Source: Priestia megaterium NBRC 15308 = ATCC 14581 | Lineage (GTDB): Bacteria > Bacillota > Bacilli > Bacillales > Bacillaceae_H | DNA length: 64,000 nucleotides | NCBI RefSeq assembly: GCF_000832985.1 | Contig: NZ_CP009920.1 | Location: 3,714,501-3,778,500 of the forward strand | Direction: 5' to 3' | In this document: positions 21,431 through 53,053 of the stretch, one piece after another | Layout of the letters: each line of letters starts with the position of its first letter | Position numbering within the stretch: position 1 is the first letter of the stretch | The notes under the pieces: generated by a model | Database searches by the model: none | What the model was told of the DNA's origin: nothing | Seen by the model: only the letters and a program-made list of their open reading frames with translations | Made by a program: the position numbers and the translations under genes

Positions 21431-21450
21431 AAATCATATTATAATTTTGA

Positions 21451-21619: not shown

Positions 21620-21627
21620 ACTCTTTG

Positions 21628-21644: not shown

Positions 21645-21684
21645 ATAAATAAGTGTAGAACGTAAAAGAGAGGAGCAAGTGTAC

Positions 21685-22616: not shown

Positions 22617-22628
22617 GGAGATGAGTTT

Positions 22629-23435: not shown

Positions 23436-23461
23436 ACGGCGAACTTAAGGGAGGGATAGAG

Positions 23462-24289
23462 ATGGAAAATGAAAAAAGATTAACGAAAAAAGATATCTTT
23501 AGCATGTTCATTCGTTCGAATTTTTTACTTGGTTCATTTAACTTTGAACGTGTTCAAGCAATGGGCTACTGTTATGTTATGATTCCAGCAATCAAACGCT
23601 TATATGGACCAGGAGCTCAGCGAAATGCAGCATTAAAGCGTCACTTAGAATGGTTCAATACACACCCATGGATTTCCGCACCTATATTCGGCGTCACGGC
23701 AGCAATGGAAGAAGAAATGGCAAACAAAAAAGATTTTGATGAAAAAGCTATCAGCGGAATGAAAATTGGATTAATGGGCCCGCTTGCTGGTGTAGGAGAC
23801 CCTATTTTCTGGGGAACGCTTCGACCAGTTCTCGCAGCCCTAGGCGCCTCGCTTGCGTTAGGCGGTAATATTGCCGGGCCACTGCTGTTTTTCATCTTAA
23901 TTAATGCAATTCGATTAAGTACAAAATATTATGGATTAAAATATGGTTACTTAAAAGGAACAGAAATTTTAAAAGATTTAGTAGGCAATCGAATTCAAAA
24001 ACTGACGGAAGGTGCATCCATTTTAGGACTCTTCGTAATGGGAGCGTTGGTTTCGAAATGGACCACTATTAATATACCAGTGGTTGTTTCTAGGATCAAA
24101 GATGATTCTGGTAAAGTTGTGGTAAAAACCGTGCAAGACGTACTTGATAGTATTCTACCGGGGCTGCTTCCTTTAGCACTAACTCTATTAGTAGCATGGA
24201 TGCTTCGAAAAGGTACAAATCCGCTGCTTATTATTTTCGGTATTTTCTTAATTGGTATAGGGGGTTATTGGATAGGCTTTTTAGGATGA
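23462..24289 (+). CDS. levG: Fructose PTS EIID component (mannose family)
   Basis: 275 residues. LTKKDIFSMFIRSNFLLGSFNFERVQAMG and GLMGPLAGVGDPIFWGTLRP are hallmark IID motifs; C-terminal hydrophobic helices anchor it with IIC. GGGAGGGATAG precedes the start. The levanase gene follows after 86 bases with no terminator, so it probably belongs to the same transcript. Confidence 0.93.
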   Translation: MENEKRLTKKDIFSMFIRSNFLLGSFNFERVQAMGYCYVMIPAIKRLYGPGAQRNAALKRHLEWFNTHPWISAPIFGVTAAMEEEMANKKDFDEKAISGMKIGLMGPLAGVGDPIFWGTLRPVLAALGASLALGGNIAGPLLFFILINAIRLSTKYYGLKYGYLKGTEILKDLVGNRIQKLTEGASILGLFVMGALVSKWTTINIPVVVSRIKDDSGKVVVKTVQDVLDSILPGLLPLALTLLVAWMLRKGTNPLLIIFGIFLIGIGGYWIGFLG

Positions 24290-24375
24290 TAAATAAGAGG
24301 AGTCATCTATTCTTCTAGCATCTGCTGGTGAAAATGTTTTACATAACCAGTATGCAAATAAAGGAGGAAAGGAAG

Positions 24376-27300
24376 ATGAAAAGAACCGTTAAAAAGTTAT
24401 TGATGATTGGAGTCGCTTGTTCCATAAGCTTGTTTTCTGCATGCCCTGTATTAGCTGATAATACAGGGTATTATCAAGAAAAATACCGGAATCAATTTCA
24501 TTTTTCTCCAGAAGCGAACTGGATGAACGATCCAAATGGAATGGTCTATTATAACGGAGAGTATCACCTTTTTTATCAGTATTATCCTTACGGTACCACT
24601 TGGGGACCTATGCACTGGGGGCATGCAGTTAGTACAGATTTAGTGAAATGGAAACACCTGCCGATTGCTCTTTCTCCAGACGAGAACGGAGAGATTTTTT
24701 CCGGAAGTGCCGTTATCGATTGGAATAATACCGCAGGGTTTGGAAAAGAAGCAATGGTAGCTATCTTTACACACTCGGGCAGAAAAGGACAAGTGCAAAG
24801 TCTAGCATACAGCAAGGACAGGGGAAGAACGTGGACCAAGTATGAAGGAAACCCTATTATGCCGAATCCCCCAGTTCCTGACTGGCGCGACCCAAAAGTG
24901 TTTTGGCATGACCAAACCAAGCAGTGGGTGATGTCTTTAGCTGCTAAAGATAAAATTATGTTTTATACATCACCTGACTTGAAAAATTGGAAATACGCAA
25001 GTGAGTTTGGACCTGATGGAGGCATCCAAGCAAACGGTCAAAGTGGTGCATACTCATATACCTTATCCGAACAAAAAGGTCAATCCTTTACTCTAGAGGG
25101 GGAAATTACGCTTGTAGAAAAGAATGGACGCGCAGGCGCAGGCGGTCTTGTTTTTCGTTCTAATAAAGACGCAACAAACGCATATACCGTCAATTTAGAT
25201 GCAGAAAAGAACCTCTTAACACTTAACAAAGTAGAGAAAGGAAACATAACGACTGTTGTTTCAAAGCCAATGAGGCTTGATACATCACAAGCATATCATG
25301 TAAAAGTAGAAGCAAACAGTCACTACTTTAAGGTACTGCTAAATGGAAAACAGGTTCTAGAAGGCAGTGATGCATCTTTTGAAAATGGTCAGTTTGGATT
25401 AACAGCATGGAATTCCACAGCTGTCTTTCGTCATGTTAAATTTACGAATCAATCTAATTTCATAACCAATCTATCTAACTGGAAACCTGTTACGGGAACA
25501 TGGAATGATACTGCTGATGGAAAAACCGGTAAATCTGACAGCGACGGATACATTATGAGTGAAGAACAGGGAGATCAGTTTATTTACGAGTCAAATATGA
25601 CATTTTTAGATGAAAACCCTGGTTCAGGTGCACTACTCTTTCGGGCAGACGCGGAAGCCAAAAACGGATATATAGCTAGCGTGGATGCTTCTAAGGATAC
25701 AATCAAACTAGTAAAGCTTCAAAATGGCATTTCAACTGTCCTTGCCGAAACAAATGAAAAAATTGATACGAGCAAATCACATCAAGTAAAAGTAACTGCA
25801 TCTGGAAATAAACTTGATTTGTATATAGACGATAACTTCACCCTTACTGCAAAAGATGAAACTTTTTCAAAAGGATTGTTTGGACTACACGTTAATCAAT
25901 CTTCAGTCCGGTTTCAAGACGTTAACATGACCAAGTTTATTGATACAGATGAAAAAGAAATTAAAAATAAAAGTTTTGAAACAGGCGATCTCACCGGCTG
26001 GAAAACGATAAAAGGAAATGCATTCACAAACGATCATGTAACGGATGCAACCACAAATTGGAGCGGTCTCTTTGAACAAAAAGGAAAGTATCATTTATGG
26101 GGGTTTTCTGATAAGCAAGATGGTGATAATGCCACTGGAGAATTACATTCGTCTTATTTTAAATTGAGCGGATCAGGTGAAATCAATTTGTTAATGGGAG
26201 GCGGAAACGACCCCGCAAACCGCTATGTAGCCTTAGTCCGGGCATCCGACGATAAAGAATTGATTCGTCAAGCGAATACAAAGTTTGCAGATGAAAAGTA
26301 TCAGCGCTACGTATGGGATGCTTCTAAGTATATAGGAGAAGTACTGTACATTAAAGCCGTTGATCAAGCTGTAGGCGGATGGGGGCATATTAATCTAGAT
26401 GATGTGAATGTATTTCATACAGAAAAAATGCCGGATAAAGTAGACAGTGTAGCAAAAGAACCGGAGGAAGCTAAACAAAGAGAAAGCGGAGAGATTTCAG
26501 ATTGGAACACAGTGTCAGGAGAATGGGTGAATTCAACTCACGGAAGCAACGGAGGCATTTGGGAGTGTCCTACTTTACTCGAACTGCCGGTTGATGGAGA
26601 CAGCACAAAGAAAAAATGGGTGCTGCAGGTCAGCATCAATGATGGAGCGGCAGCTGGAGGTTCAGGGATGCAGTACTTTGTTGGGGATTTTGACGGAAAA
26701 ACATTTAAAAATGAAAACCCGCCAGAGGAAGTGCTTTGGACAGATTATGGTGCCGACTTTTATGCCGCTGTAGATTGGAGCGGAGTTGCAGGAGATAACG
26801 GAGAAAAGTATTGGCTAGGCTGGATGAGCAACTGGCAATATGCAAACAATACTCCCACTACTACTTGGAGAAGCTCTATGTCAATCCCAAGAAAAATAGA
26901 ACTCACCAACACAGCAAAAGGGCTTCGTTTAAAACAAATACCTGTTTCAATTGATTCAATCCGCAATAAGCAAGAAAAAAAGATATTGAAGAATCTCATG
27001 GTTACTGAAAATGGAAATCTTCTTTCAGGCATACAGGAAAACAAATATGAAATTATGGCAGAATTCGATGTTTCTAATACAGAGGCACAAGAATTTGGTT
27101 TTCAAATTCAAAAAGAAGGCAGTGAAAATACGAAAGTCAGCTATAACATAAACAAACAGCGATTATCTGTTGACCGAACAAACTCTGGAAGTTTTGATTT
27201 TGGTGAAAATGTGAAAGGCAAACACTCTGCTTCCATGCTTCCAAAAGACGGAAAGGTTAAGCTTCATATGTTTGTAGACCAGTCGTCTGTAGAAGTATTT

Positions 27301-27954
27301 GGTAATGACGGCACAGAAGTAATAACAGACCAGCTCTTTCCAACGCTTTCAAGCAATAAAATAAGGCTTTATAGCAAAGGAGGCGCTGTAAAATTAAATT
27401 CTCTTAAGATGTATCCGTTAAAATCAATTTGGAATAAAAGTCCTGTTGAGACAAACTTATCAGGGTGGAAAAGCATTAGCGGACTATGGGCCGATACGAT
27501 TAACGGGAAACAAGGACGAAGCAAAGAAGATGCCTTTACCTTATCATCAAAAGAAGCAAAAAATTTCACATATGAGGCAAAGATAAAGGTGTTAAAGGAG
27601 GCTGTTTCAAATTCTACAGGAGCAGGAGCGCTAGTATTCCGTTCGGATGAACAGGCAAATAACGCTTACGCTGCGAATGTAGATGTGCTTAATAATCAAG
27701 TGAAACTCATTGCGTTTAGAGATGGAATAGGAAAGGATCTCATTATTTACGACGATGGGGGAAAGCTGGATTTAAAACCAAATACGGATTACCATCTAAA
27801 AGTAAGGGCTGAAGGAGAGCACATTCAAGTTTATCTCGATGGCAAGCTGGTGATCGATACAATGGATCCTACCTTTTCAGAAGGTTATGCTGGGCTGAAT
27901 GTGTGGAATTCTACTAGTTTGTTTAATGAAGTGAAGCTTGAAATAGTGGATTAA
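24376..27954 (+). CDS. sacC: Secreted levanase (GH32) with a large domain insertion
   Basis: 1192 residues with a signal peptide (LLMIGVACSISLFSACPVLA). Catalytic boxes are D52 in MNDPNGM, D172 in WRDPKV and E730 in WECPTLLEL. Between the second and third boxes lie some 550 residues where about 50 are usual. Residues from about 216 to 690 hold two CBM66-like beta-sandwich repeats (near 214 and 361) and a third jelly-roll-like module (near 529). The propeller then resumes, and another CBM66-like domain closes the protein (1027-1192). It hydrolyses levan to fructose for the PTS. AAAGGAGGAAAGGAAG fixes the start; B. subtilis SacC has about 677 residues. Confidence 0.93.
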   Translation: MKRTVKKLLMIGVACSISLFSACPVLADNTGYYQEKYRNQFHFSPEANWMNDPNGMVYYNGEYHLFYQYYPYGTTWGPMHWGHAVSTDLVKWKHLPIALSPDENGEIFSGSAVIDWNNTAGFGKEAMVAIFTHSGRKGQVQSLAYSKDRGRTWTKYEGNPIMPNPPVPDWRDPKVFWHDQTKQWVMSLAAKDKIMFYTSPDLKNWKYASEFGPDGGIQANGQSGAYSYTLSEQKGQSFTLEGEITLVEKNGRAGAGGLVFRSNKDATNAYTVNLDAEKNLLTLNKVEKGNITTVVSKPMRLDTSQAYHVKVEANSHYFKVLLNGKQVLEGSDASFENGQFGLTAWNSTAVFRHVKFTNQSNFITNLSNWKPVTGTWNDTADGKTGKSDSDGYIMSEEQGDQFIYESNMTFLDENPGSGALLFRADAEAKNGYIASVDASKDTIKLVKLQNGISTVLAETNEKIDTSKSHQVKVTASGNKLDLYIDDNFTLTAKDETFSKGLFGLHVNQSSVRFQDVNMTKFIDTDEKEIKNKSFETGDLTGWKTIKGNAFTNDHVTDATTNWSGLFEQKGKYHLWGFSDKQDGDNATGELHSSYFKLSGSGEINLLMGGGNDPANRYVALVRASDDKELIRQANTKFADEKYQRYVWDASKYIGEVLYIKAVDQAVGGWGHINLDDVNVFHTEKMPDKVDSVAKEPEEAKQRESGEISDWNTVSGEWVNSTHGSNGGIWECPTLLELPVDGDSTKKKWVLQVSINDGAAAGGSGMQYFVGDFDGKTFKNENPPEEVLWTDYGADFYAAVDWSGVAGDNGEKYWLGWMSNWQYANNTPTTTWRSSMSIPRKIELTNTAKGLRLKQIPVSIDSIRNKQEKKILKNLMVTENGNLLSGIQENKYEIMAEFDVSNTEAQEFGFQIQKEGSENTKVSYNINKQRLSVDRTNSGSFDFGENVKGKHSASMLPKDGKVKLHMFVDQSSVEVFGNDGTEVITDQLFPTLSSNKIRLYSKGGAVKLNSLKMYPLKSIWNKSPVETNLSGWKSISGLWADTINGKQGRSKEDAFTLSSKEAKNFTYEAKIKVLKEAVSNSTGAGALVFRSDEQANNAYAANVDVLNNQVKLIAFRDGIGKDLIIYDDGGKLDLKPNTDYHLKVRAEGEHIQVYLDGKLVIDTMDPTFSEGYAGLNVWNSTSLFNEVKLEIVD

Positions 27955-41159: not shown

Positions 41160-41198
41160 TTAATTGGCGCTGTTAAATTTTTAAAAACACCCAATTAA
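41160..41198. promoter_or_regulatory. Candidate enhancer (UAS) for the cyanophycin operon
   Basis: TTAATTGG and its complement CCAATTAA stand 23 bases apart, centred about 100 bases before the predicted sigma-54 start. This is the usual enhancer position for an NtrC-class activator such as the one encoded at 46906. Confidence 0.5.
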
Positions 41199-41252
41199 CA
41201 CCTAAAACACGATTTAATTATATCATAATTCAGAAAATTAAACGGTTTTACG

Positions 41253-41270
41253 TTGGCACGAAAATTGCTT
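41253..41270 (+). promoter_or_regulatory. Sigma-54 promoter of the cyanophycin operon
   Basis: TTGGCAC, 5 bases, TTGCTT, with GG-N10-GC spacing. A leader of about 110 bases separates the predicted start from the transporter gene. Confidence 0.85.
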
Positions 41271-41390
41271 GTACTGTATATGAGGAATGCAAAAGGAAGG
41301 AGCAATATGGAGCTGCAGATAAGGAATCTGCTTTTAAAGAACGGGATGTCTGTTTAAAGCTATTATTTCATAATGAAGGGGAGAAGAAGA

Positions 41391-42812
41391 ATGAGTGAAC
41401 CGCAAAAAGAAATGAGTTCATTAAATCAGGTACGGAAAAAAGAGAGGAAAATAAACGTTTTTGCTTTATTGTTAGGATTTCTTGTGATTGCTACCATTTT
41501 AACGTATATCTTGCCAGCTGGAGAATACGCACGCGTAGAAGTAGACGGAAGAACAACGGTAGATCCTCAGTCGTTTAAATGGATTGATTCTACACCTGTT
41601 GGATTCTTTGATATGGTCAAAGCGATACATACAGGAATGGTAGAAGGAGCCGACATTATCTTTTTTGTATTAATTATCGGCGGTTTCTTTGGCGTACTAA
41701 GCGCTACGGGGACAGTAGATGTATTAATTACAACGATGGCTAAAAAACTTGCTACCCGAGAAAAATTATTAATTCCTGTTATGATGCTGTTTTTTGCGGT
41801 AGGCGGTTCTTTAATGGGAATGGCGGAAGAAACGCTAGCCTATATTCCTCTTTTAATTCCGCTGGCACTTGCTCTTGGATTCGATGCATTAACAGGGACT
41901 GCTATTGTGTTAATTGGCGCATCGGCTGGTTTTACTACGGCCGTTATGAATCCATTTACAGTGGGTGTTGCACAAGGAGTAGCAGAGCTTCCTATGTTTT
42001 CTGGAATGGGCTTTCGACTCATCTTATTTGTAGTTGTTTATGCTGTTTCAGTATGGTTTGTCTACCGATATGCGATGAAAGTTAAAAAAAGTCCTTCGAT
42101 TGGAACATACGGAAAATACAGCATAACTAATGCAAATAAACTCTTAAACTCAGATGCAAAGTTAACTAGAAAGCATAAATGGATTATGGCAGCATTTCTT
42201 ATTAACTATGTAATTCTTGCTTTTGGGGTTATTAAGTATAAGTGGTACATTACCGAAATTGCCTCTCTGTTTGTCATTTTGACTATTGTGATTGGGGTTA
42301 TTGGGAGACTGTCTGTTGAAAATACAGTTAAGTCGTTTACAAACGGGGCAGCAGCATTAGTTGGAGGAGCGCTAGTTATCGGAGTTTCTCGTGCTGTTCT
42401 TGTTGTTTTGAATGAAGGTCATATTGTAGATCCTATGCTTCATCAAGTATCTGGAACCATTCAACATATTCCGGGATATTTAAGCGTCATTGGAATCTAT
42501 AACTTCCAAGCGCTGATTCACCTTATTTTAGCATCTGGAACAGGTCATGCGATGCTGACAATGCCAATCATGACACCGCTTGCAGATTTGCTTGATATTA
42601 CAAGACAAACAGCAGTATTATCTTTTTCTTTTGCAGACGGCATCGGAAACATTATTTTCCCGACGGCTGGAACATTAATGGCTGGCTTAGCGATTGCGGG
42701 AATTTCATGGACAAAGTGGGCAAAATGGGTGCTGCCGTTAGTCCTTATTCAATATGTGATTGGTCTAATAGCCGTTGTGATTGCTTATTTTATCAATTAC
42801 GGACCATTTTAA
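41391..42812 (+). CDS. DcuC/YfcC-family membrane transporter
   Basis: 473 residues with a basic cytoplasmic N-terminus and about twelve hydrophobic segments. Family features include TYILPAGEYARVEVDGR, GGSLMGMAEETLAYIPLLIPLALALGFD and the C-terminal SGTGHAMLTMPIMTPLADLL. Relatives carry C4-dicarboxylates, or arginine/ornithine in the YfcC/ArcD branch. Position between a sigma-54 promoter and isoaspartyl dipeptidase suggests uptake of beta-Asp-Arg dipeptide or of a product; this is inferred. ATG 41391 follows AAGGGGAGAAGAAGA. Confidence 0.82.
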   Translation: MSEPQKEMSSLNQVRKKERKINVFALLLGFLVIATILTYILPAGEYARVEVDGRTTVDPQSFKWIDSTPVGFFDMVKAIHTGMVEGADIIFFVLIIGGFFGVLSATGTVDVLITTMAKKLATREKLLIPVMMLFFAVGGSLMGMAEETLAYIPLLIPLALALGFDALTGTAIVLIGASAGFTTAVMNPFTVGVAQGVAELPMFSGMGFRLILFVVVYAVSVWFVYRYAMKVKKSPSIGTYGKYSITNANKLLNSDAKLTRKHKWIMAAFLINYVILAFGVIKYKWYITEIASLFVILTIVIGVIGRLSVENTVKSFTNGAAALVGGALVIGVSRAVLVVLNEGHIVDPMLHQVSGTIQHIPGYLSVIGIYNFQALIHLILASGTGHAMLTMPIMTPLADLLDITRQTAVLSFSFADGIGNIIFPTAGTLMAGLAIAGISWTKWAKWVLPLVLIQYVIGLIAVVIAYFINYGPF

Positions 42813-42875
42813 GCATTAAAATTATATAGAAAAATATTATTCGCAAGTCGAGCTTACTAGTAGGAGGAATAGAAG

Positions 42876-44048
42876 TTGTTAACCTTAATCAAAAACGCAG
42901 AAGTATATGCACCACAGCCTTTAGGAAAAAAAGACGTATTACTTGCAGACAGCAAAATCATCCTTATAAAAGATTATATTGAGCATTTAAATACGTCCAT
43001 TCCTATTGATGTTGTAGACGCGGCTAATCACATTATAGCTCCAGGCTTCATTGACTCACATGTTCATATTATTGGCGGAGGAGGAGAAGGTGGATATAAA
43101 ACACGCACTCCTGAACTAATGTTAACCGATGCAACGACTGCCGGTGTTACAACTATTGTAGGTGTACTTGGAACAGACGGTACAACAAGAAGAATGGAAA
43201 ATCTTCTGGCCAAAGCAAGAGGATTAGAAGAAGAAGGGATTAGCTGTTTCATTCACACAGGTTCTTATCAAATACCAGTAAAAACGTTAACTACCAGCAT
43301 CGAAGAAGATCTTATTTTAATTGATGAAATTATCGGAGTAGGTGAAATTGCCATTTCTGACCACCGTTCCTCTGAACCGACATTTGAAGAACTGGTAAAG
43401 GCGGCTTCTGCTGCCCGCAATGGAGGGATTTTATCAGGGAAAGCCGGAATATTAGAAGTTCATGTAGGGGATGGAAAACGGAAATTATCTTTATTAAATC
43501 AAATCGCAGATGAAACAGATCTGCCAATTCGTCAGTTTCATCCTACACATATTAATCGAAATGAAGAACTGTTTAAAGAAGGAATTCAATTTGCAAAACG
43601 AGGTGGCTATGTAGATTTTACAACTAGTACCATTCCATATTTTTTAGAAGAAGGCGAAGTTAAGTGCAGTAAAGGGTTACGTATCATGCTTGAAGAAGAA
43701 GTTCCAATCTCGAGCATTACGTTCTCATCCGATGGACAAGCGAGCCTGCCGTTTTTTGATGATAACGGAGACTATAAAGGGCTTCAAGTTGGAAAAGTGT
43801 CTTCTTTATTTCAAGAAGTACGAGATGCAGTATTAGAAGAATCAGTGCCGTTAGAAACAGCTCTTCAAGTCATTACTTCTAATCCTGCCAAAGTATTAAA
43901 ACTGTCCAATAAAGGGCATATTCAACCTGGAAAAGATGCAGATTTAGTCCTTTTAGACAAAGAGACACTAACAATTAAAACAGTTTTTGCTCAAGGTAAA
44001 GTAATGGTAAAAGACGGTGTCCCTGTTGTGAAAGGAACGTTTGAATAA
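42876..44048 (+). CDS. iadA: Isoaspartyl dipeptidase
   Basis: 390 residues from a TTG eight bases after AGGAGG. Metal-dependent amidohydrolase: SHVHIIGGGGEGGYKTRTPE carries the HxH pair and the GGGEGG substrate loop; later blocks are VGEIAISDHRSSEPT, LEVHVGDG, HPTHINRN and SSDGQASLP (catalytic Asp). It hydrolyses beta-aspartyl dipeptides. Next to cyanophycinases its natural substrate is probably beta-Asp-Arg, giving Asp and Arg. Cytosolic, no signal peptide. Confidence 0.93.
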   Translation: MLTLIKNAEVYAPQPLGKKDVLLADSKIILIKDYIEHLNTSIPIDVVDAANHIIAPGFIDSHVHIIGGGGEGGYKTRTPELMLTDATTAGVTTIVGVLGTDGTTRRMENLLAKARGLEEEGISCFIHTGSYQIPVKTLTTSIEEDLILIDEIIGVGEIAISDHRSSEPTFEELVKAASAARNGGILSGKAGILEVHVGDGKRKLSLLNQIADETDLPIRQFHPTHINRNEELFKEGIQFAKRGGYVDFTTSTIPYFLEEGEVKCSKGLRIMLEEEVPISSITFSSDGQASLPFFDDNGDYKGLQVGKVSSLFQEVRDAVLEESVPLETALQVITSNPAKVLKLSNKGHIQPGKDADLVLLDKETLTIKTVFAQGKVMVKDGVPVVKGTFE

Positions 44049-44140
44049 CAGGTTTTAAACATCATTTAACGAAAGTATCGAGAAAGAATACGAGCTAGTC
44101 AGAGAAAGATATTAAAATTTGCGTGGAAAGGATCTTTTAA

Positions 44141-46693
44141 ATGAAAAAGAAACTTGTTTCATGTCTTATCAGCTTTACATTACTTTCTTCTTTGAGTACA
44201 CCGCTGCTTGCAAAAGCACAAGAAAATACTGAAGACATTAAAGGCAGCCTTGTTATTGCAGGCGGAGGTATAGGGACATCTAATCACGAAATCTATGAAA
44301 AGTTTCTCTCGCTTGCTGGAGGAAAAGAAAAAGCAAAAGTAGGGATTATTCCAGCTGCTAGCACAACGCTGCAGTCTTCTAAAAAGTTTAAGGAAGACCT
44401 CGTAAAATACGGAGCAAACTCAGATTCTATTAAAATTCTTCCCGTTTCAAATCACGATTTTTCTGATACACAAAAGGACGAATCAACCTGGAAGAATCAA
44501 GTAAATGATAAGAAGTTATCCCGTACGATTAAAGGACTAACGGCAGTTTGGTTTGTTGGAGGAGATCAAACCAAAATTGTGGATTCTCTTCGTCAAAATA
44601 ATGGAAGTGATTCTGAAGCGTTAAAAGCTATTTGGGATATATATCGTAAAGGAGCAGTAATCGGAGGCACAAGTGCAGGAGCTGCAATTATGAGTGACGT
44701 CATGATTACAGGAGGAGACAGTCTAGGAGCGTTAAAAGACAGTTTAGAAAACAAGGAAAATAAACATGTAAGCAAAAACCAACGCAGTCAAAAAGAGTAC
44801 GAGCCTCTATCAATTCAAAAAGGGCTGGGGTTTTTCCAACACGGCATAATTGATCAGCACATGGATGAACGAGCACGACTTGGGCGACTTGCAGTAGCTG
44901 CATATACTTCTGAACGTGACAAAGAAAAAAACTTTGCATACGGTGTGGACGAAGATACGGCTATGGTCGTTAACAATAAAGATCAAAAGATTGAAGTTGT
45001 TGGACGAAGCGGAGTAGCCGTCTTGGATATGAGCAAAGCTGAGCTTGTATCTAAGCAGAAAGCTCGTTCGGGATTAGAGAATATAAAGGTTAGTTACTTA
45101 TCTCCTGGAGATAAAATTAACTATCATTTAAAGTCATTTGAATTTCCAAAAGAGAGAGTAGAAACGAAGGGATTTGAATATTACTCGTTTAACGCACTGC
45201 CTGCTACGGGTGTTTTTACGCCATATGGAAGATTAAAGGCTTATTTATCCTATTCTCTTGTTGACAATGAATCGATGAAATCTGCGAAAAGCTATGTTTA
45301 TGACAGTAAAGGGTCGGGATATGAAATTGCTTTTCAAAAGGACAATAATACAAACGGCTACTGGAGATATACTGACGGACAAAAAGATGACTATTCCATT
45401 GTAAATGTCAAAATGGATATTACGCCCAAAACCTTCAAATTCCAACCGGATAGAAAAACTAGTTTAACGTATAAAAAACCTACTTTTTCTTCATCTGAAA
45501 GTCCTGCATACGATTCGATTAAAGGTAATCTCTTAATTGCAGGAGGAGCGCTTGGCAGCAGCAATTCAAGCGTGTATAACAAGTTTATTAATCTTGCAGG
45601 AGGAAAACAAGCCAAAATAGGAATTGTGCCTGCAGCGAGTACTAAGTTCGACTCTTCTAATCAGTTTAAAAGTGATTTAATTAAATACGGAGTGAAAGCA
45701 GAAAATATAGAGATTTTACCTATTTCGAACCATGACTTTAAAGGAACTTCTGAAAATGAGTCGACTTGGAAAACAAATATGAACAGTGATAAACTAGCGC
45801 AAAAAGTTAAAGGGCTAACGGGCATTTGGTTTGTAGGAGGAGATCAAACCTTGATTACGGGCTCCTTGCGTAATGAAAATGGTTCGGACTCAAAAGTTTT
45901 ACAAGCTATATGGCATACGTATAAAAACGGGGCAGTACTTGGCGGTACGAGCGCCGGCGCGGCAATTATGAGTAATACTATGCTCGCAGGCGGAGATAGC
46001 TACGGAGCGCTTTCATACGGATTTACAAACACATATGATGATATGAATCAGCAAGAAGGCGGGCCTGCTTATTTGGAAAAAGGTCTTGGCTTTTTCCAAT
46101 ACGGTCTTGTAGATCAGCATTTTGACAACAAAGCAAGACTCGGACGTCTTATTGCAACAGCATATGAAAAAGGAAATAAAAATCAGCTTTCATACGGAAT
46201 TGATGAAGATACTGCTATGGTGGTAAATAATAAAGAAAAACAAATAGAAGTTGTGGGAAGAGGCGGTATTACGCTAGTTGACTTAGCGAAGGTACAGGCA
46301 AATGACAAATTTCCGAGTGACTACAAAAATATTCTTATCTCTTGTATCACTCCAGGCGACAAAGTAAATCTCACAACAAAAGAAATCGTCATAAACCCAG
46401 CTAAAACATCTACTAGAAAAAATGAATACTACAGTGAAAAAGTTGGACCAAATACAGGTCTTTTCTCTCCGCACGGTGTACTAAGAAAGTTTTTAGCTTA
46501 CGATCTTGTTGATAACGCTCAGAGTAAAGAAATAAAGAGCTATGCGTTTAACCAAAACAAAGGTTTTGAGCTTACCTTCCGAAAAAGTGCTGAAAGCAAT
46601 GGTTATTGGGCTTATACAGACGGTCAAAAAGACGATTACTCCATTGTAAAGGTAGCCTTAGATATCAAACCAATAGATGTAGATATTAGATGA
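44141..46693 (+). CDS. Secreted double-domain cyanophycinase (peptidase S51)
   Basis: 850 residues: signal peptide (LVSCLISFTLLSSLSTPLLAKA), then two full S51 units at about 35-445 and 460-850. Each has a glycine-rich start (VIAGGGIG / LIAGGALG), a FVGGDQT block, the nucleophile Ser in GGTSAGAAIMS (S178 and S604, 426 residues apart), DQHxD..ARLGRL and the matching end DGQKDDYSIV. S51 cyanophycinases cleave multi-Arg-poly-Asp to beta-Asp-Arg. Both active sites look intact. Single-domain enzymes are the norm. GGAAAGGATC precedes the ATG; a terminator follows at 46733. Confidence 0.88.
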   Translation: MKKKLVSCLISFTLLSSLSTPLLAKAQENTEDIKGSLVIAGGGIGTSNHEIYEKFLSLAGGKEKAKVGIIPAASTTLQSSKKFKEDLVKYGANSDSIKILPVSNHDFSDTQKDESTWKNQVNDKKLSRTIKGLTAVWFVGGDQTKIVDSLRQNNGSDSEALKAIWDIYRKGAVIGGTSAGAAIMSDVMITGGDSLGALKDSLENKENKHVSKNQRSQKEYEPLSIQKGLGFFQHGIIDQHMDERARLGRLAVAAYTSERDKEKNFAYGVDEDTAMVVNNKDQKIEVVGRSGVAVLDMSKAELVSKQKARSGLENIKVSYLSPGDKINYHLKSFEFPKERVETKGFEYYSFNALPATGVFTPYGRLKAYLSYSLVDNESMKSAKSYVYDSKGSGYEIAFQKDNNTNGYWRYTDGQKDDYSIVNVKMDITPKTFKFQPDRKTSLTYKKPTFSSSESPAYDSIKGNLLIAGGALGSSNSSVYNKFINLAGGKQAKIGIVPAASTKFDSSNQFKSDLIKYGVKAENIEILPISNHDFKGTSENESTWKTNMNSDKLAQKVKGLTGIWFVGGDQTLITGSLRNENGSDSKVLQAIWHTYKNGAVLGGTSAGAAIMSNTMLAGGDSYGALSYGFTNTYDDMNQQEGGPAYLEKGLGFFQYGLVDQHFDNKARLGRLIATAYEKGNKNQLSYGIDEDTAMVVNNKEKQIEVVGRGGITLVDLAKVQANDKFPSDYKNILISCITPGDKVNLTTKEIVINPAKTSTRKNEYYSEKVGPNTGLFSPHGVLRKFLAYDLVDNAQSKEIKSYAFNQNKGFELTFRKSAESNGYWAYTDGQKDDYSIVKVALDIKPIDVDIR

Positions 46694-46732
46694 AAAGAAA
46701 GTAATTCAATGCATCTAGCACTTTAGCATATT

Positions 46733-46766
46733 GTGCCTCCACCTATTAAAGCGGAGGCACTTTTTT
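46733..46766 (+). terminator. Terminator after the cyanophycinase gene
   Basis: GTGCCTCC / GGAGGCAC with T6. The activator gene therefore probably has its own promoter. Confidence 0.88.
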
Positions 46767-46905
46767 CTACTTATTTTTATTTACAATAGGGACAAACGTC
46801 CGCTAGATGAAATGCAGGGCAACGTATAAAATGATAGGTACAGTATTCCAAGACTAATCTCTGAAGGCAAGCAAATTTAAAGGCCTGTAGAAAGGTGTTC
46901 ATACG

Positions 46906-48219
46906 ATGAAAAAGAAATTAGTTTTAATAACAGGAAGCAAGCAAACTAGAATCATTTTGCACGATCAATTAAAAGAGTTGCTAGACGATTACATTTTTAT
47001 TGAATGCTTTGCGATTGACGAAGAATTACCGGGGGAAATTGATGGCGATGTTGTCCTCTACTCATCAGAGAGTATAAAGCACGAAATGAAGGACAGATTA
47101 GACGTTCAGCATGCACATGAAATTGTAGGGAATAGAACGATTCACCATAAGCATATAAATGAATTGCTGCAAATCCCCGCCCATACAAAAGTATTAATTG
47201 TAAACGATGACGATAAAGAAACCCTTAAATTAATAGAATCTCTCTATCAAGTAGGTATTAATCATGTTCAGTTTATTCCTTTTAAAAAGCAAAAGACCTA
47301 TTACGAAGGTGTGGAAGTTGCTGTTTCTCCGGGTGAGATTCACTTATGTCCGCCATATGTAAAACATGTAATTGATATAGGCGTTAGGCTTTTTGATATG
47401 GCGACCATTTTTGAACTTATAAAATCATTTGGTTTTAATCAGTCTAATCATTCAATTATTTGGGATCGCTATTTACGAAATATTATTGAGCTGCAAAAAA
47501 AGCTAATAGAAGCAGAAGGGCAAATGAAAGAACTTCACCTCCATGTAAAGAGTGTTGTAAATGTAGTAGAAGATGGGATCCTGGCCGTGGATTTCAATAA
47601 AAGAATTACGTTATTTAATAAAAGGTTAGAATCATTGTTTCAGCTATCTTCTTCTGATGTTGTAGATCGTGAAATTCAACATGTCATTTCTAACGAAGGC
47701 CTTGTGGAGTTTATTACATCGTCCGACGAGAAAAGTCAGTACTTTAACGTAAACGGATACGAAATGGTTATCTATAAGTCTATGATTCAGGAAAGCAATA
47801 CTACGGTAGCAACGTTTAAAAGTGTGAATCAAGCTGTTGAAATAGAAGGAAAAGCGCAGTCAGAACTTAGAAAAAACGGCTTTTCTGCTAAGTATAATTA
47901 TCAAGATATTATCGGAGAACACCCAGCTTTGCTTAAAACGATTGAAATTTCCCGGAAAATGGCGGTTACTGAGTACCCTATTTTAATTCAAGGAGAAACC
48001 GGTACAGGAAAAGAGCTGTTTGCTCAGGCTATCCACAATCATTCTACACGTAAAAACGGACCGTTTCTTGCCGTAAATTGCAGTGCCATGACCGATACAT
48101 TGCTAGAAAGTGAGCTGTTTGGGTATGAAGAAGCCAGTTTTACAGGAGCCCAAAAAGGTGGCAAAAAAGGGCTGTTTGAGAGCGCTGATAAAGGTACGAT
48201 CTTCCTGGATGAAATTGGT
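46906..48219 (+). CDS. Sigma-54 activator (NtrC/PrpR class), 5' exon
   Basis: 438 codons before the intron. The N-terminal 200 residues resemble a PrpR-type sensory region (VLYSSESI...LIVNDDDKETLKLIES), then a PAS-like domain (VEDGILAVDFNKRITLFNKRLESLF), then the AAA+ domain with Walker A GETGTGKE, the contact loop ASFTGA (GAFTGA with G to A and A to S changes) and FLDEIG, where the gene is interrupted. Unspliced, translation would run 19 codons into the intron and stop at 48277-48279, giving a truncated and inactive ATPase. Likely activates the two cyanophycinase promoters. Confidence 0.88.
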
Positions 48220-48807
48220 GTGCGCCCATACGGGCATATAGAGAATCTCCTTAGACAAGAGATGGGAGTCTGCGCTTAACCCATTTACCGCCTTGCTTAC
48301 CCACAAGGGGAAACCCGGAGGGGACCAGAGCATGCAAGGAAAGCCCTAAGTTACCAAAGTGACCTAGGTACGACTGAGGGGCAAGGTAAAAAATGTTATG
48401 AATAAGGATGAATGCTAAACTGCGTGAACCATAGTCCAAAGTGGAGTATCGTCGCCCGAAGTGAAGGGTCATTGAAACGCTTCGCAGTCAAGAATGGAAA
48501 TATTGCCAAAGTTTCCATTGAACATACGTGATACGTATGGCAGACCAAAGACTGGCTAACTTGGATAACAAGTAACGGACGAAAGTGGCATCCGACATCA
48601 TAATTAGTCTAGTTTCTATATGTACTAAATGGGGATTACCTAACTTGGAACGCCTCGTAAGGAGGCTATTGAGGATGATACCAAGTGTAAAAAGCAAGGT
48701 ATGTGGCTCATGAAAATCCAATATGGTAACGGAGTTCTCGTAGTAGTCAGAGCGAGGGAAAGCCTCGTACAAGGCAAAGGAGAACAGTCTTTTCGACTAA
48801 TATTAAA

Positions 48808-50643
48808 TTGGGAAGGGGCGTGAGGCTCTTGCGAAGCCCAAAAATCGTATTAGGAAATCTAGCATCTCACAGTAACAAAGCAGGATATAAATACAAAAAA
48901 TTATATCGAAATCTGTATAACCCATTATTTTTTCTTGATGCCTATCAAAATATATACGCCAGCGAAGGAAACATGACTGCTGGAACAGATGGAAAGACCA
49001 TTGACGGAATGTCTACAGAAAGAATCTCAGCACTAATTGATAAGTTACGAGATTATTCTTACCAACCAAAACCAGTAAGAAGAGTTTATATTCCAAAGAA
49101 AAATGGAAAAAAGCGTCCGTTGGGCATACCTTCCGTAGAAGATAAGTTAGTTCAAGAAGTCATCAAAAACCTATTACAATCCATCTATGAACCAACCTTT
49201 AGTAAGTTCTCTCATGGCTTTCGCCCTGAAAAAAGTTGCCATACAGCACTAATTCAGGTCAAAGGAACCTTTACTGGGAGTAGATGGTTCATTGAAGGTG
49301 ATATCGAAGGTTTTTTCGACAATATTAATCATCATATCCTTATCCATACCCTAAGGAAGAGGATAGATGATGAACAATTTATTTCGCTTATATGGAAGTT
49401 CCTTAGAGCCGGATATTTAGAGGAATGGAAGTTTCATAAAACGTTTAGTGGTGCACCACAAGGTGGTATTCTTAGCCCTTTACTAGCAAATATTTATCTA
49501 AATGAGTTAGATAATTTTATAAATCGGTATAAGTCAACTTTTGATGTAGGAAAAGTTAGAAGGATAAACCCAGCTTATTCTAAAATACAACATCAAATAA
49601 ACAGGGTTAAGAAAGAACTGAGGGAATCCAAGGAAATAGATGAAGTACGGGAAAAAGAATTAACCAATAAGGTACATGAGTTGTTAGCTGAAAGAGAACG
49701 TATTCCTCAACGATATCCGATGGATGAGAATTATAAACGAATCCAATATGTTAGATATGCAGATGACTTTCTCATTGGAGTTATTGGAAGCAAGGAAGAT
49801 GCGTACAAGGTAAAAAAAGACATTGCTAATTTCTTGAAATCAGAACTTAAGCTAACATTATCCGAGGAGAAAACACTTATAACAAATACGAGGCATAAGG
49901 CTCGATTTTTAGGATATGACGTTAAAGTTTTGCGAGATTTTCACTCTAAACGACGAAGCGATGGAATAAAAACAAGAGCATTCTCGTTAAAATGTGAACT
50001 ATATATGCCTACTGATCTTGTTTATAGTCGCCTGTTTAAAAAAGGGGTAATAAAGGTCAACCAAAAGACAGGTCAATGGAAACCAATGCACCGTCCAGAG
50101 TTAATTAAATTGGTTCCTCTTGAGATTTTAAGAAACTATAACGCCCAGATACGTGGAACCTATCAATATTACCAACTGGCAGTTAATGTGTGCCATCTAA
50201 ACAGTTATAAGTATCTTCTTGAATATTCTATGTACAAAACCTTAGCAAATAAGTACCGTACTACCTTAGGTAAAGCTAAACAAAAATTTATGGTGAACGG
50301 AATATTCCAAGTCAGTTATATGACAAAGTCCGGTAAGAAAACGGAAGTGCTTTATGATAAGGGATTTCGTAGGAATAAAGCTCCTATAACTAAAAAGGAT
50401 ATAGAAAAACTTCCTTCGGAAGTATCATACCAATCCCGAACATCGCTTATCCAAAGGTTGATGGCTAATCAATGTGAATGGTGTAAGGCTGAAGAAGGCT
50501 CAATGGAAGTTCATCATGTTCGAAAGTTAAAGAACCTTAAAGGGAAAAAGAAATGGGAAAGACAGATGATAGCAAGAAGTCGTAAAACGATGGTACTTTG
50601 TCGAAAGTGTCATCATGACCTGCATAATGGGAAGCTAGACTGA
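48808..50643 (+). CDS. ltrA: Group II intron-encoded reverse transcriptase/maturase with HNH domain
   Basis: 611 residues from a TTG; GTG 48820 or TTG 48829 after AAGGGG are other possible starts. RT blocks include IEGDIEGFFDNINHHIL, GAPQGGILSPLLANIYLNELD and the catalytic YVRYADDFLIGV; a maturase (X) domain follows, and the C-terminus is an HNH nuclease with CEWCKAEEGSMEVHHVRKLK and CRKCHHDLHNGK. It assists splicing and target-primed retrohoming. All key motifs look intact, so the element may be active. Confidence 0.95.
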   Translation: MGRGVRLLRSPKIVLGNLASHSNKAGYKYKKLYRNLYNPLFFLDAYQNIYASEGNMTAGTDGKTIDGMSTERISALIDKLRDYSYQPKPVRRVYIPKKNGKKRPLGIPSVEDKLVQEVIKNLLQSIYEPTFSKFSHGFRPEKSCHTALIQVKGTFTGSRWFIEGDIEGFFDNINHHILIHTLRKRIDDEQFISLIWKFLRAGYLEEWKFHKTFSGAPQGGILSPLLANIYLNELDNFINRYKSTFDVGKVRRINPAYSKIQHQINRVKKELRESKEIDEVREKELTNKVHELLAERERIPQRYPMDENYKRIQYVRYADDFLIGVIGSKEDAYKVKKDIANFLKSELKLTLSEEKTLITNTRHKARFLGYDVKVLRDFHSKRRSDGIKTRAFSLKCELYMPTDLVYSRLFKKGVIKVNQKTGQWKPMHRPELIKLVPLEILRNYNAQIRGTYQYYQLAVNVCHLNSYKYLLEYSMYKTLANKYRTTLGKAKQKFMVNGIFQVSYMTKSGKKTEVLYDKGFRRNKAPITKKDIEKLPSEVSYQSRTSLIQRLMANQCEWCKAEEGSMEVHHVRKLKNLKGKKKWERQMIARSRKTMVLCRKCHHDLHNGKLD

Positions 50644-50652
50644 AAAGATGGA

Positions 50653-50686
50653 GAGCCGTATACCTTGAGAGGGGTACGTACGGTTC
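50653..50686 (+). ncRNA. Group II intron domain V
   Basis: GAGCCGTAT...GTACGGTTC with the central GAGA-type loop: the catalytic hairpin of group II introns, followed by a domain VI-like stem up to the 3' splice site at 50747. Confidence 0.9.
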
Positions 50687-50747
50687 GGGGGGGAGTTCTC
50701 GGAAACCTAAGACCGAGAGGTCTTAAGGCGCCGGGTTCTTACCCTAC

Positions 50748-51479
50748 GATATCAGTCCGCGTTTACAAACTCAGCTTTTAAGAGTGCTTCAAGAAAAAGA
50801 AATTAGACGGGTAGGAGGGACAAGAGTTATTCCGATCAATGTAAGAATAATAGCAGCTACTCACAACAATTTACTACATAAAATGAAAGAAGGGTTGTTT
50901 CGAGAAGATTTGTACTATCGTTTACACGTATTATCTTTAACGATTCCTCCTTTAAGATATAGAAGAACCGATATTCCTTTACTGATTCATCATTTTATTT
51001 CTAAATCAAAAACGTGGACGCATATCCATCCAGAAGCGATGAAGCTGCTTATCGAATACGAATGGCTAGGAAACATAAGAGAATTAAAAGGAGTCATCGA
51101 GTATTTGCTTACTGTCTGCGATGAAAACGAAGTGAAAGCAAAAGACGTAGAGTATAGGCTTAGTAGTCAAAAGGAGGAGCATACTTTACATGAAATTGAA
51201 AATGAATCGGTTGACTTGATCGAACTTCAAGAAAATCACGCTCTGTTAGAAACGATAAAGCAGTGTAATGATACAGGAAAAGCAGCAAGCAGAAAGTGGA
51301 TTACACAGCATTTAAAAGGCTTTACTCTTACAGAACAGCAGGTGAGAAATCGTTTGGATGTACTAGAAGAAAGAGAGTATATTATAAAACGCAGAGGCAG
51401 AGCAGGAACGAAAATAACAGAAAAAGGACTGCATTATCTATATCATTTAAAAACAAAACAGCACTTAATCAATCCTTAA
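50748..51479 (+). CDS. Sigma-54 activator, 3' exon
   Basis: 243 codons continuing the AAA+ domain: DISPRLQTQLLRVLQEKEIRRVGG, VNVRIIAATH (sensor I), LFREDLYYRLHV, and WLGNIRELKGVIEYLL (sensor II). The C-terminus is a winged-helix domain (FTLTEQQVRNRLDVLEEREYIIKRRGRAGTKITEKG) rather than the common Fis-type helix-turn-helix. Spliced to the 5' exon it gives a 681-residue activator. By itself, this piece has no start signal. Confidence 0.88.
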   Translation, partial: DISPRLQTQLLRVLQEKEIRRVGGTRVIPINVRIIAATHNNLLHKMKEGLFREDLYYRLHVLSLTIPPLRYRRTDIPLLIHHFISKSKTWTHIHPEAMKLLIEYEWLGNIRELKGVIEYLLTVCDENEVKAKDVEYRLSSQKEEHTLHEIENESVDLIELQENHALLETIKQCNDTGKAASRKWITQHLKGFTLTEQQVRNRLDVLEEREYIIKRRGRAGTKITEKGLHYLYHLKTKQHLINP

Positions 51480-51490
51480 TATACGGAAGA

Positions 51491-51522
51491 AAGGGAAACT
51501 TCACTAATCAAGTTTCCCTTTT
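51491..51522. terminator. Terminator between the activator and the second cyanophycinase gene
   Basis: AAGGGAAACTT pairs with AAGTTTCCCTT, followed by TTCT. Confidence 0.8.
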
Positions 51523-51553
51523 CTATAAAATAGTGTCGTCATAGACTTGGCGT

Positions 51554-52630
51554 TTACGGCTGATTTCCTCCGTATACTTTTCCTGTAGAGGAAGTAATAA
51601 CACCGCCGTTTACGTTTAAAGTATAAGCTAACCCTCCAGAACCTGTCCAAGTGGAAAGATTAAAAGTGCTGCCATTAAATAGTTTATAGATAGAAACGTT
51701 ATTAAACGTCAGCGGCTGACCGCTTATACAAGTAGCAGGCGCCTTATTCGTTTTAGCTAGATAAACAGCTGCGTTTGTAGAGCCTGGCTGTGTTACTACT
51801 TTAGCTGAACCATCTTTTTCTACCAGAAGCGCTGACTGTTCATTAACAGCAATTCCTTTGGCGCTTGTTCCAGTTTCTTCTCCGTCTTGGATATTACGTG
51901 CAAGAAATGTTAAAAAGCGTCCCATTCTATCTCGTTGTTCAAAATGAGTGTCTGTTTGAATGTTATTATTATGCGGGGTTTGAATCAAATAATCTGTAAA
52001 AGAAATAAGAGAACTATAGGGATTGTTTAGCGCTGTTTTCGAATCTAAAGTTGTAGAGCCTGCTGAGATAGAGTCATAAACGTGATCACCTTGAATCATG
52101 GTGCCGGCACTTGTTCCTCCAAAAGGAATGCCTTGATTAATACGATTATTTAAGGCTGTAAGAGCTGGGGATCCTTCTAAGAAATCTACGTAATCAGCTT
52201 GATTGCCTCCAGCAAAAAAGATGCCTTCTGCCTTGTTAATTTTGTCAATTAAAGAAGAGTCTGAACCTGCTCTTATTAAATCATCGACAACAATTGTGCT
52301 AACAGAGTTAAGGGGCTTACCTATGCTTTTGGCGAGGTCATAGATATATGAATTATAGGCGTCAGTACCCGTCGCTCTTATAACCAAGAAATCTCCGCCG
52401 TTTGCCTTTTGAATCATCCATTTGAATGCTTCATCTACATCGATGCTTCCGCCCATATAGACTTGTCCGAAGCTTGTACTAGTAGCTTTGTCTGCAGTAC
52501 TTCCGACTTGATAAAGCGTATAAGGTGCAGAAGCAGCGGAAGTGGAGATTGGAAGTAAAAGAGATGCCGCGAGAACAGCACAAGTAATGACCTGCTTTTT
52601 AATACTTTTCTTACGTTCAGCTTTTTTCAT
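51554..52630 (-). CDS. Secreted cyanophycinase-family protein (peptidase S51)
   Basis: 358 residues with a signal peptide (VITCAVLAASLLLPISTSAASA). The S51 nucleophile region reads GIPFGGTSAGTMIQGD; FFAGGNQADYVDFL and DTHFEQRDRMGRFLTFLARN are family blocks, with DTH in place of the DQH of the double enzyme. It resembles the extracellular CphE-type branch. A C-terminal beta-rich tail (FNLSTWTGSGGLAYTLN) is present. AAAGGAGGAGAACTTT fixes ATG 52630; a frame to 52669 is rejected. Convergent with the activator gene and preceded by its own -24/-12 element. Confidence 0.85.
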   Translation of the reverse strand: MKKAERKKSIKKQVITCAVLAASLLLPISTSAASAPYTLYQVGSTADKATSTSFGQVYMGGSIDVDEAFKWMIQKANGGDFLVIRATGTDAYNSYIYDLAKSIGKPLNSVSTIVVDDLIRAGSDSSLIDKINKAEGIFFAGGNQADYVDFLEGSPALTALNNRINQGIPFGGTSAGTMIQGDHVYDSISAGSTTLDSKTALNNPYSSLISFTDYLIQTPHNNNIQTDTHFEQRDRMGRFLTFLARNIQDGEETGTSAKGIAVNEQSALLVEKDGSAKVVTQPGSTNAAVYLAKTNKAPATCISGQPLTFNNVSIYKLFNGSTFNLSTWTGSGGLAYTLNVNGGVITSSTGKVYGGNQP

Positions 52631-52667
52631 AAAGTTCTCCTCCTTTAATAAGTATTCATAAATGAAC

Positions 52668-52685
52668 ATGCAAGTTTTATACCAA
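52668..52685 (-). promoter_or_regulatory. Candidate sigma-54 promoter of the second cyanophycinase gene
   Basis: On the minus strand TTGGTATAAAACTTGCAT has the invariant GG-N10-GC spacing and TTGCA -12 box; the -24 box departs at CAC. The predicted start gives a leader of about 29 bases containing the ribosome site, the same geometry as the levD promoter. Confidence 0.65.
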
Positions 52686-53053
52686 CTTATTGAACACCGG
52701 CAAAATAGTGAAAGAAGGCTTTTTTTAAAAGCTCTATGTGTAATATAGGTTATTTATGGGTCATTATTAAGGTTTTTTACACCCGAAAAATGGCGAGAAC
52801 GACTTTAACTTGGATATCTAATAGTGAAAAGAAATTGCAAAAGGTATATTACAAGATTACATCCCTCATTGAAAAATCACCTTTAAAAACTTAAAATTAT
52901 AATAGAAAGGAAAAACAAGGATAAAAAGAAGAGCTGTCCGCAATAGCGCCTTATTTATCAAACAGACCTTCATTCTATCAATATCTTCATCTCTTAAACA
53001 TTTTCCACCAGCATTTCTACGCAGAAAAATTATACATGAGAGGATCTGTCAAA
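52686..53053. other. Intergenic region between divergent cyanophycinase and MFS genes
   Basis: About 370 bases, AT-rich. It would contain the enhancer for the 52668 promoter and the MFS promoter; no clear dyad matching the one at 41160 is visible. No gene supported. Confidence 0.35.

Follow-up and report, generated by a model that had tools for sequence, protein, structure and literature searches.

A predicted sigma-54 regulon for scavenging beta-aspartyl dipeptides and cyanophycin in Priestia megaterium and other Bacillaceae

Cyanophycin is a nitrogen-rich polymer in which microbes store nitrogen, and fixed nitrogen is moved when other bacteria degrade it. The literature on cyanophycin scavengers that we examined describes enzymes and gene clusters, and not dedicated control. 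The closest described system is the "cyanophycin utilization locus" of Bacteroidetes strain L21-Spi-D4 (Ben Hania et al. 2017), which, in the excerpts of PMC10206079 that describe it, comprises cyanophycinase gene(s), iadA, and a transporter and is proposed to serve scavenging. An extracellular cyanophycinase purified from B. megaterium BAC19 (CphE, Obst et al. 2004) is named in an excerpt of PMC3235067, and cyanophycinase, isoaspartyl dipeptidase, and CphA2-like genes of B. horikoshii are mentioned in an excerpt of PMC5532821. Here we describe a locus in a 64,000-nucleotide stretch (hereafter the window) of the genome of Priestia megaterium NBRC 15308 = ATCC 14581, a soil bacterium related to Bacillus; the genome is 5.75 Mb in 7 contigs and 99.99% complete. 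As judged from comparative sequence analysis, this locus is likely to represent a dedicated sigma-54 regulon that scavenges beta-aspartyl dipeptides and has been extended to cyanophycin.

Like the L21-Spi-D4 locus, the window locus carries cyanophycinase, iadA, and transporter genes. Unlike that locus, as far as the excerpted description goes, it also has a sigma-54 promoter and a dedicated activator. The order from 41160 to 52762 is an activating region, a -24/-12 promoter, a DcuC/YfcC gene, iadA, a tandem cyanophycinase gene, a hairpin, and an activator gene split by an intron, followed by the gene for a second S51 protein (S51b) that is convergent with the activator gene and has its own -24/-12-like site. 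Every element named in the original prediction (promoter, transporter, IadA, tandem cyanophycinase, activator, and second S51 gene) is present, as follows.

41160-41207, plus strand: upstream activating region, with TTAATTGG at 41160-41167 (by eye) and the direct-repeat enhancer CACCCAATTAACACCTAAAA at 41188-41207
41254-41269, plus strand: -24/-12 sigma-54 promoter TGGCACGAAAATTGCT, zero mismatches to consensus
41373-42812, plus strand: DcuC/YfcC-family membrane transporter (Pfam DcuC, 351 bits)
42876-44048, plus strand: IadA, isoaspartyl dipeptidase (beta-aspartyl-peptidase; TIGR01975)
44141-46693, plus strand: secreted tandem two-domain cyanophycinase (TIGR02069; signal peptide by eye)
46733-46766, plus strand: terminator-like hairpin (gtgcctcc...ggaggcac, then a T run; by eye) between operon and activator gene
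46906-48219, plus strand: activator exon 1, residues 1-438 (N-terminal domain, PAS, start of AAA+)
48220-50747, plus strand: group II intron (GTGCG...CCCTAC; RF00029) in the Walker B codons of the activator
48435-48440, plus strand: candidate EBS1 (TCCAAA), a putative assignment, as the word occurs three times in the intron
48808-50643, plus strand: intron-encoded reverse transcriptase/maturase with HNH domain (group_II_RT_mat)
50748-51479, plus strand: activator exon 2, 243 residues (remainder of AAA+, AAA lid, winged helix HTH_12)
51554-52630, minus strand: second secreted S51 protein, S51b, divergent (Pfam S51; signal peptide by eye)
52669-52684, minus strand: S51b -24/-12-like promoter TGGTATAAAACTTGCA, kept in same-genus relatives
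52743-52762, minus strand: S51b candidate enhancer GACCCATAAATAACCTATAT, 58 bases from the -24 element

The hairpin was absent from the output of a scan of the sequence. The start of S51b had been placed at 52669, and the ribosome-binding site read by eye makes 52630 likelier.

To evaluate sigma-54 control, which the original prediction had only inferred, we searched for promoter sequences in the genome and in related loci. The pattern TGGCAC-N5-TTGCW has 17 perfect sites in the genome versus 1 for the reversed pattern. The operon promoter TGGCACGAAAATTGCT, itself a perfect match, is identical at all 16 bases in three close relatives, and its equivalents are TGGCACGTAAATTGCA in locus L039 and TGGCATGAATCTTGCA in L040; TGGTATAAAACTTGCA is shared by the window with three relatives of its genus, of which L036 shows a single change in the spacer. 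For a broader comparison, named genomes were scanned with an alignment of 8 tandem proteins, which yielded 79 loci, 44 of them from Bacillota (L044-L086 and L116); L044, a close relative that has both sites, was outside the open reading frame (ORF) table, leaving 43 Bacillota loci to be counted. In 40 of these 43 loci, a core gene (DcuC, IadA, or S51) is preceded by a TGGYAY-N5-TTGCW site, which lies upstream of 3 of the 519 other ORFs in these loci that span 150 amino acids or more, and three decoy motifs each occur at 0 of 43 loci and at 0, 0, and 2 of the 519 control ORFs. The three misses differ in kind: L075 has the sigma-54 site and a broken cyanophycinase frame, L049 has a site beside its unlinked activator, and L060 has neither a site nor a full-length activator match. 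Cyanophycinase genes that are unlinked from the activator keep the sigma-54 site, and many also keep an enhancer-like repeat. We conclude that sigma-54 control of the operon is strongly supported by these comparisons of promoter and enhancer across Bacillaceae.

Unlike the window, the non-Bacillota loci, mostly of Pseudomonas and relatives, lack the strict pattern within 600 bases upstream in 35 of 35 cases, as measured from the start of the match rather than of the gene, and sigma-54 control as a general feature of cyanophycinases is therefore not supported. A scan for sigma-70 promoters returned 18 sites versus 33.4 in shuffled sequences, fewer than expected from the shuffles. Two full-length sigma-54 genes, encoding 436 and 450 residues that are 35% identical, are present in the genome (matches at G000:C6:1881124-1881600 and C6:3017899-3018378; L043, L042), one beside genes resembling cggR-gapA and the other apart. 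Elsewhere in the window, a levan/fructan-type region (18635-27954) with genes named by eye as a LevR-like activator (931 amino acids), phosphotransferase system (PTS)-like genes, and a large levanase-like protein has a second perfect -24/-12 site at 21629-21644, where the enhancer motif described below is missing (0.6 bits).

We then examined the regions upstream of sigma-54 sites for a shared activator-binding sequence. De novo search of 43 such regions, 2 of them from the window, chosen among the sites found with many near-duplicates left out, returned the direct repeat.AACCAAAAA.AACC.ATAA with a log-likelihood of 262, versus 61-69 in 5 mononucleotide shuffles given half as many starts. A model rebuilt from 41 regions, with both window regions left out but 4 regions from the GTDB genus of the window (L051, L054, and their activator loci) and 1 from its family (L050) retained, was applied to all 59 sigma-54-like sites in the genome. 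Its top score, 18.3 bits, falls on the S51b promoter and its next, 14.4, on the operon promoter; the third site is at 7.8, and only 2 of 127,962 window positions reach 14.4 bits. The operon enhancer lies 46 bases from the -24 element. The model scores 12 bits or more in 28 of the 41 regions, with the motif 35-37 (4 regions), 45-47 (11), 55-57 (12), or 126 (1) bases away, and none of 20,000 random draws is as well phased at 10 or 10.5 bases.

A stricter model from 36 regions, which leaves out the GTDB family of the window entirely, has a log-likelihood of 219, versus 63.7-72.8 in 10 shuffles with equal starts, and ranks the operon promoter first and the S51b promoter third of the 59 sites, with an unrelated site, L013, between them. 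Its register is about 3 bases off that of the 41-region model, and 21 of 26 training regions reach at least 12 bits at 32-34, 42-44, or 52-54 bases. Across 12 further models (genus or family excluded, two widths, and the three best solutions of each), S51b takes first place 11 times and second place once, and the operon promoter is first in 1, second in 9, and third in 2; one stricter model favors the neighboring register at the operon enhancer. Thus, the enhancer link of both window promoters holds in these comparisons, with smaller margins. At 13 activator loci from genomes without a detected cyanophycinase, all outside the training set, 8 score at least 12.0 bits, one scores 11.4, and four score at most 7.4.

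The proteins of the operon are those expected for a scavenging locus. IadA scores 574 bits against the equivalog cut-off of 331.25 for TIGR01975, and no signal peptide was seen. The tandem protein (44141-46693) scores 328.3 bits against the TIGR02069 cut-off of 126.6; the motifs GGDQ, GGTSAG, DQH, and DEDT are invariant in both of its S51 domains among 8 aligned sequences, and domain 2 aligns with the Protein Data Bank (PDB) cyanophycinases 7uqv, 3en0, and 7uqw. GGTSAG is the nucleophile motif, and the tandem protein is a predicted canonical cyanophycinase. The transporter belongs to the DcuC family and reaches 332.4 bits against the equivalog cut-off of 500 for NCBIfam YfcC (NF008611), and its identity as a YfcC basic amino acid antiporter was accordingly not adopted. 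DcuC-type genes adjoin IadA and activator genes in other genera too, and this gene neighborhood points to the DcuC/YfcC protein as a proposed importer of beta-Asp-Arg.

The second secreted S51 protein stands in part. Its S51 family membership (Pfam S51, 43.5 bits against a cut-off of 23.9) and, by eye, its signal peptide agree with the earlier description, but S51b falls below the cyanophycinase cut-off (78.3 versus 126.6 bits for TIGR02069). It keeps GGTSAG and otherwise has GGNQ, TDTHF, and NEQS. Neither that cut-off nor the DQH motif supports it as an ordinary cyanophycinase, and it looks like a putative S51 enzyme co-regulated with the operon. Other S51 arrangements were seen among relatives. 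In L045, L046, L048, and L079 (Gottfriedia and relatives), the operon carries, downstream of IadA, a third S51 kind with 28-30% identity to the tandem enzyme; it has IDTHF for DQHF in L045 and L046. Weak S51 matches in open frames of 798-929 residues lie no more than about 3 kb from the activator in genomes G048, G093, G128, G156, G180, and G182. In the last four, IadA adjoins the activator and there is no sigma-54 site of this pattern; these frames are possibly another two-domain S51 type with other control.

The search of the genome for cphA, which had been proposed with the original prediction, gave 22 weak matches, the best at 145 bits against a cut-off of 850; from their matched region and length, the best of these look like Mur-ligase relatives. 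Turnover of a cyanophycin store of the cell's own making was thereby rejected, and the combination of cyanophycinase, iadA, and transporter with no cphA over cut-off in the genome marks a cyanophycin utilization locus of the scavenging type. This agrees with the earlier preference for uptake over storage turnover, as do the signal peptide read by eye on the cyanophycinase and its absence from IadA. The scavenging idea itself holds in outline, but earlier publications already cover loci of this composition and an extracellular cyanophycinase from B. megaterium BAC19. In a comparison that took BAC19 CphE by name, the window differs from it and from Pseudomonas CphE in its two-domain enzyme and second, divergent S51 protein; its tandem enzyme shares with BAC19 CphE the predicted extracellular location and the species name.

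The activator gene encodes a sigma-54 enhancer-binding protein. Pfam PF00158 (Sigma54_activat) matches both exons, and the Walker A motif GETGTGKE, the GAFTGA-type loop ASFTGA, and the Walker B motif FLDEIG/D (slash marking the exon junction) were read from the sequence. The description of this protein as an NtrC-class activator is upheld by the sigma-54 AAA+ domain but not by the C-terminal domain, which is HTH_12 and not a Fis-type helix-turn-helix (HTH); of 6 homologs, 4 score at or above the HTH_12 cut-off (one exactly at it) and 2 fall short. PrdR and other activators of amino acid catabolism in Clostridiales are likewise PAS-AAA+ sigma-54 activators, but in the excerpts of PMC6615313 that treat them they have a Fis-type HTH and, in many groups, TGT...ACA inverted repeats, whereas the window activator has a winged helix and ACC direct repeats. 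Membership in PrdR (NF041552) was rejected: searched apart, the two ORFs reach 177.9 and 152.5 bits where the cut-off is 795.

Within residues 1-180 of the activator, no Pfam family matches below E 0.05 (one at 0.071), and among 28 homologs no family outside PAS matches more than 3 at E 0.1. A structural model of these 180 residues has a pLDDT of 90.7 and no PDB match at E of at most 0.001 (best 0.0066). The listed PDB matches of a 330-residue model are PAS-type or multi-domain PAS proteins. The sequence profile places the PAS matches at about 190-300, and a name for the N-terminal domain was not adopted. Two more distant homologs, L146 and L147, share 32% and 30% identity with the exon 1 part; each has an IadA-like neighbor (43-44% identity), which makes them a further branch of the regulator-dipeptidase pairing.

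We next sought to define the extent of the regulon. Activator, DcuC, IadA, and cyanophycinase genes share a locus in 21 of 46 clustered loci. In 23 genomes the cyanophycinase locus lacks the activator; 21 of these genomes contain, at another place, a nearly full-length match to activator residues 1-330. In all 9 genomes with an unlinked cyanophycinase that were fetched with more flanking sequence, a sigma-54 site separates the activator from a divergently oriented DcuC-IadA pair (8) or a lone IadA gene (1); compared with that of the window, 2 of these DcuC-type genes are about 80% identical and 6 are 30-32% identical. Peribacillus L052, L053, and L073 each have an S51b homolog within a DcuC-IadA-S51b-cyanophycinase operon; in L059 the homolog comes before the cyanophycinase gene, and in Ectobacillus (L270) its placement is convergent, as in the window. 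A survey of 150 genomes of the order, with cyanophycinases accepted at E of at most 1e-20, found a cyanophycinase in 23, the activator in 43, and both in 22 (Fisher p 1.5e-13, ignoring kinship), such that 22 of 23 genomes with a cyanophycinase have the activator, versus 21 of the 127 others. At 16 activator loci from cyanophycinase-match genomes, retrieved with short flanks, the neighbor is a DcuC-type gene at 9, IadA at 6, and neither at 1. Because the activator occurs in genomes without a cyanophycinase, the simplest reading is that the core module is probably beta-aspartyl-dipeptide uptake, to which cyanophycinases would have been added. The inducer may accordingly be beta-aspartyl dipeptides in general, given activators that lie beside a DcuC-type gene where no cyanophycinase is detected.

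In the mechanism that we favor, secreted S51 enzymes would trim extracellular cyanophycin to beta-Asp-Arg, as their family suggests, and a DcuC/YfcC-type carrier would import the dipeptide, as the gene neighborhood suggests. Cytoplasmic IadA would split it to aspartate and arginine, the function of its family. The one-component activator (N-terminal domain, PAS, AAA+ motor, and winged helix) would sense the dipeptide or a product and would bind the ACC direct repeats upstream of the -24/-12 elements at the operon and the S51b gene; the repeats would act mostly from one helix face, at sites that the comparison supports. In this strain, a full activator would in addition require splicing of an intron shared with plasmid traG.

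The intron at 48220-50747 (2,528 bases) has the GUGYG start, AY end, domain V (RF00029, 59.7 bits, 50651-50747), and reverse transcriptase/maturase ORF with HNH domain (group_II_RT_mat, 298.9 bits, cut-off 300) of a group II intron. As the intron-split activator of the earlier description implied, it is inserted exactly between two codons of a gene that is uninterrupted in L034, L035, and L036. The exons join in frame with no stop (FLDEIG/DISPRL, slash marking the insertion point), and the activator differs from those of L034, L035, and L036 at 40/15, 100/35, and 75/24 synonymous/non-synonymous codons of 682. With Walker B divided by the intron, the whole activator would be made only after splicing; translation of unspliced mRNA would end after 457 residues, giving a product without the AAA+ end and the DNA-binding domain. 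The sole other copy in the genome (G000:C7:131320-133847, on a 301,264-base contig) is 100% identical and sits in a TraG/VirD4-type gene, again in Walker B codons (VFLLDEFG/NMPA). Plasmid NZ_CP035095.1 (ATCC 14581; 301,273 bases) likewise has a 100% identical copy in a traG-type gene. In a plasmid collection, 8 of 11 matching records hold the full-length intron, at 92-100% identity and with traG-type flanks in 8 of 8, although 2 of the 8 are labeled ATCC 14581 and the 8 are not independent cases. The DSM 32 plasmid record, another of the 8, comes from the same type strain as ATCC 14581. The window copy differs from these P. megaterium plasmid introns in lying in a chromosomal activator gene, at the corresponding Walker B codons. 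Candidate EBS1 pairs at 6 of 6 positions with the end of the traG 5' exon and at 4 of 6 with that of the activator in this strain; EBS2 could not be assigned uniquely in the intron. From this pairing and the plasmid flanks, traG is probably the home site and the activator gene a secondary target, and splicing in the activator may be less efficient than in traG. A general preference for Walker B cannot be claimed from two target genes.

The intron raises the alternative that it has inactivated the activator, such that the locus is silent and the regulon no longer induced in this strain, which we regard as rather unlikely. The insertion does fall in Walker B, EBS1 pairs less well with the activator than with traG, and the two copies are identical, which implies a recent insertion and means that intact exons say little. 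Nevertheless, the intron ends, domain V, and maturase frame are intact, the exons join in frame, and the intron persists in the traG-type gene in all 8 full-length plasmid copies, suggesting splicing there.

Several observations weigh against the regulon as we read it. With the genus or family left out, the margin of the window promoters over the next site is 0-5 bits, and L013 can outrank one of them. At L052, L053, and L055-L057 the enhancer is poor or missing, and it scores 1.2 bits at L039; sigma-54 sites are truly missing at 2 of the 43 loci (L049 and L060), and the loci share descent, so that their counts are not independent. S51b has GGNQ and TDTHF where a cyanophycinase has GGDQ and DQHF, and two kinds of DcuC-type gene occur, one sharing about 75-80% and the other about 30% identity with that of the window. 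A purely cyanophycin-related role is at odds with the 21 activator genomes without a detected cyanophycinase and with a DcuC-type gene beside the activator, together with a sigma-54 site, at 13 of 13 loci returned from those genomes. Furthermore, 7 of 29 activator stretches have no sigma-54 site of the pattern (L159, L172, L178, L180, and L182-L184), all from cyanophycinase-match genomes (L159 and six with IadA). The BAC19 enzyme entered our comparison by name and not by sequence, and we infer substrate, transport, inducer, DNA binding, and splicing from the sequence features given above.

Some of these observations would also fit a system for general isoaspartyl dipeptides from damaged or degraded proteins, with the S51 enzymes directed at beta-linked peptides of other kinds and cyanophycin an incidental substrate. 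The 13 loci just cited and the missing DQH motif of S51b are consistent with that possibility, as is the promiscuity of an IadA from a cyanophycin cluster noted in an excerpt of PMC10206079. However, the tandem protein lies 200 bits above the cyanophycinase cut-off with catalytic motifs intact in both domains, and distant cyanophycinase genes still carry the sigma-54 site and often an enhancer-like repeat; we therefore judge this alternative unlikely. Finally, chance, or conservation of noncoding DNA rather than regulation, is a very improbable source of the -24/-12 and enhancer signals: upstream sequence within the genus is about 90% similar and the enhancer is weak or missing at some loci, but the decoys (0 of 43), the non-Bacillota loci (0 of 35 within 600 bases upstream), the persistence of the promoter pattern at unlinked genes across genera, and the ranks of 1 to 3 of 59 that models without the GTDB family give both window promoters largely refute this view for the promoters.

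Beyond the dedicated scavenging regulon, a more far-reaching interpretation is possible but doubtful: an undescribed Bacillaceae class of one-component sigma-54 activator might govern an isoaspartyl-dipeptide regulon that recruited cyanophycinases, linked or unlinked, with the response made splicing-dependent by a traG-to-activator intron move. Dipeptides would then be sensed through the N-terminal domain that has no confident Pfam or fold match, the winged helix would read phased ACC repeats, and the plasmid intron would home to Walker-B-coding DNA.

The original prediction had taken regulation of this kind to be apparently unreported, and no report turned up in one open-access library: a sigma-54 link to cyanophycin breakdown was not found among the matches listed there, a collection that most subscription papers lie outside. 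Term searches found cyanophycin unmentioned in PMC6615313, PMC3162934, PMC12316311, and PMC4524646, the excerpts of PMC9723704 have sigma-54 and cyanophycin in unrelated places, and "sigl" is an author's name in the excerpts of PMC4495716 and PMC5670224.

The evidence supports the observation as real and its first reading as right in outline. Scavenging loci and an extracellular cyanophycinase of B. megaterium are already known; the new part is the regulatory layer (regulon, activator, and enhancer) and its reach across Bacillaceae. The intron offers a clear case of a single element occupying the codons of a shared motif in two unrelated ATPase genes. The activator, two promoters, enhancer sequence, and gene set are directly testable in P. 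megaterium and predictable in many Bacillaceae, and the system could supply a sensor for beta-aspartyl dipeptides.

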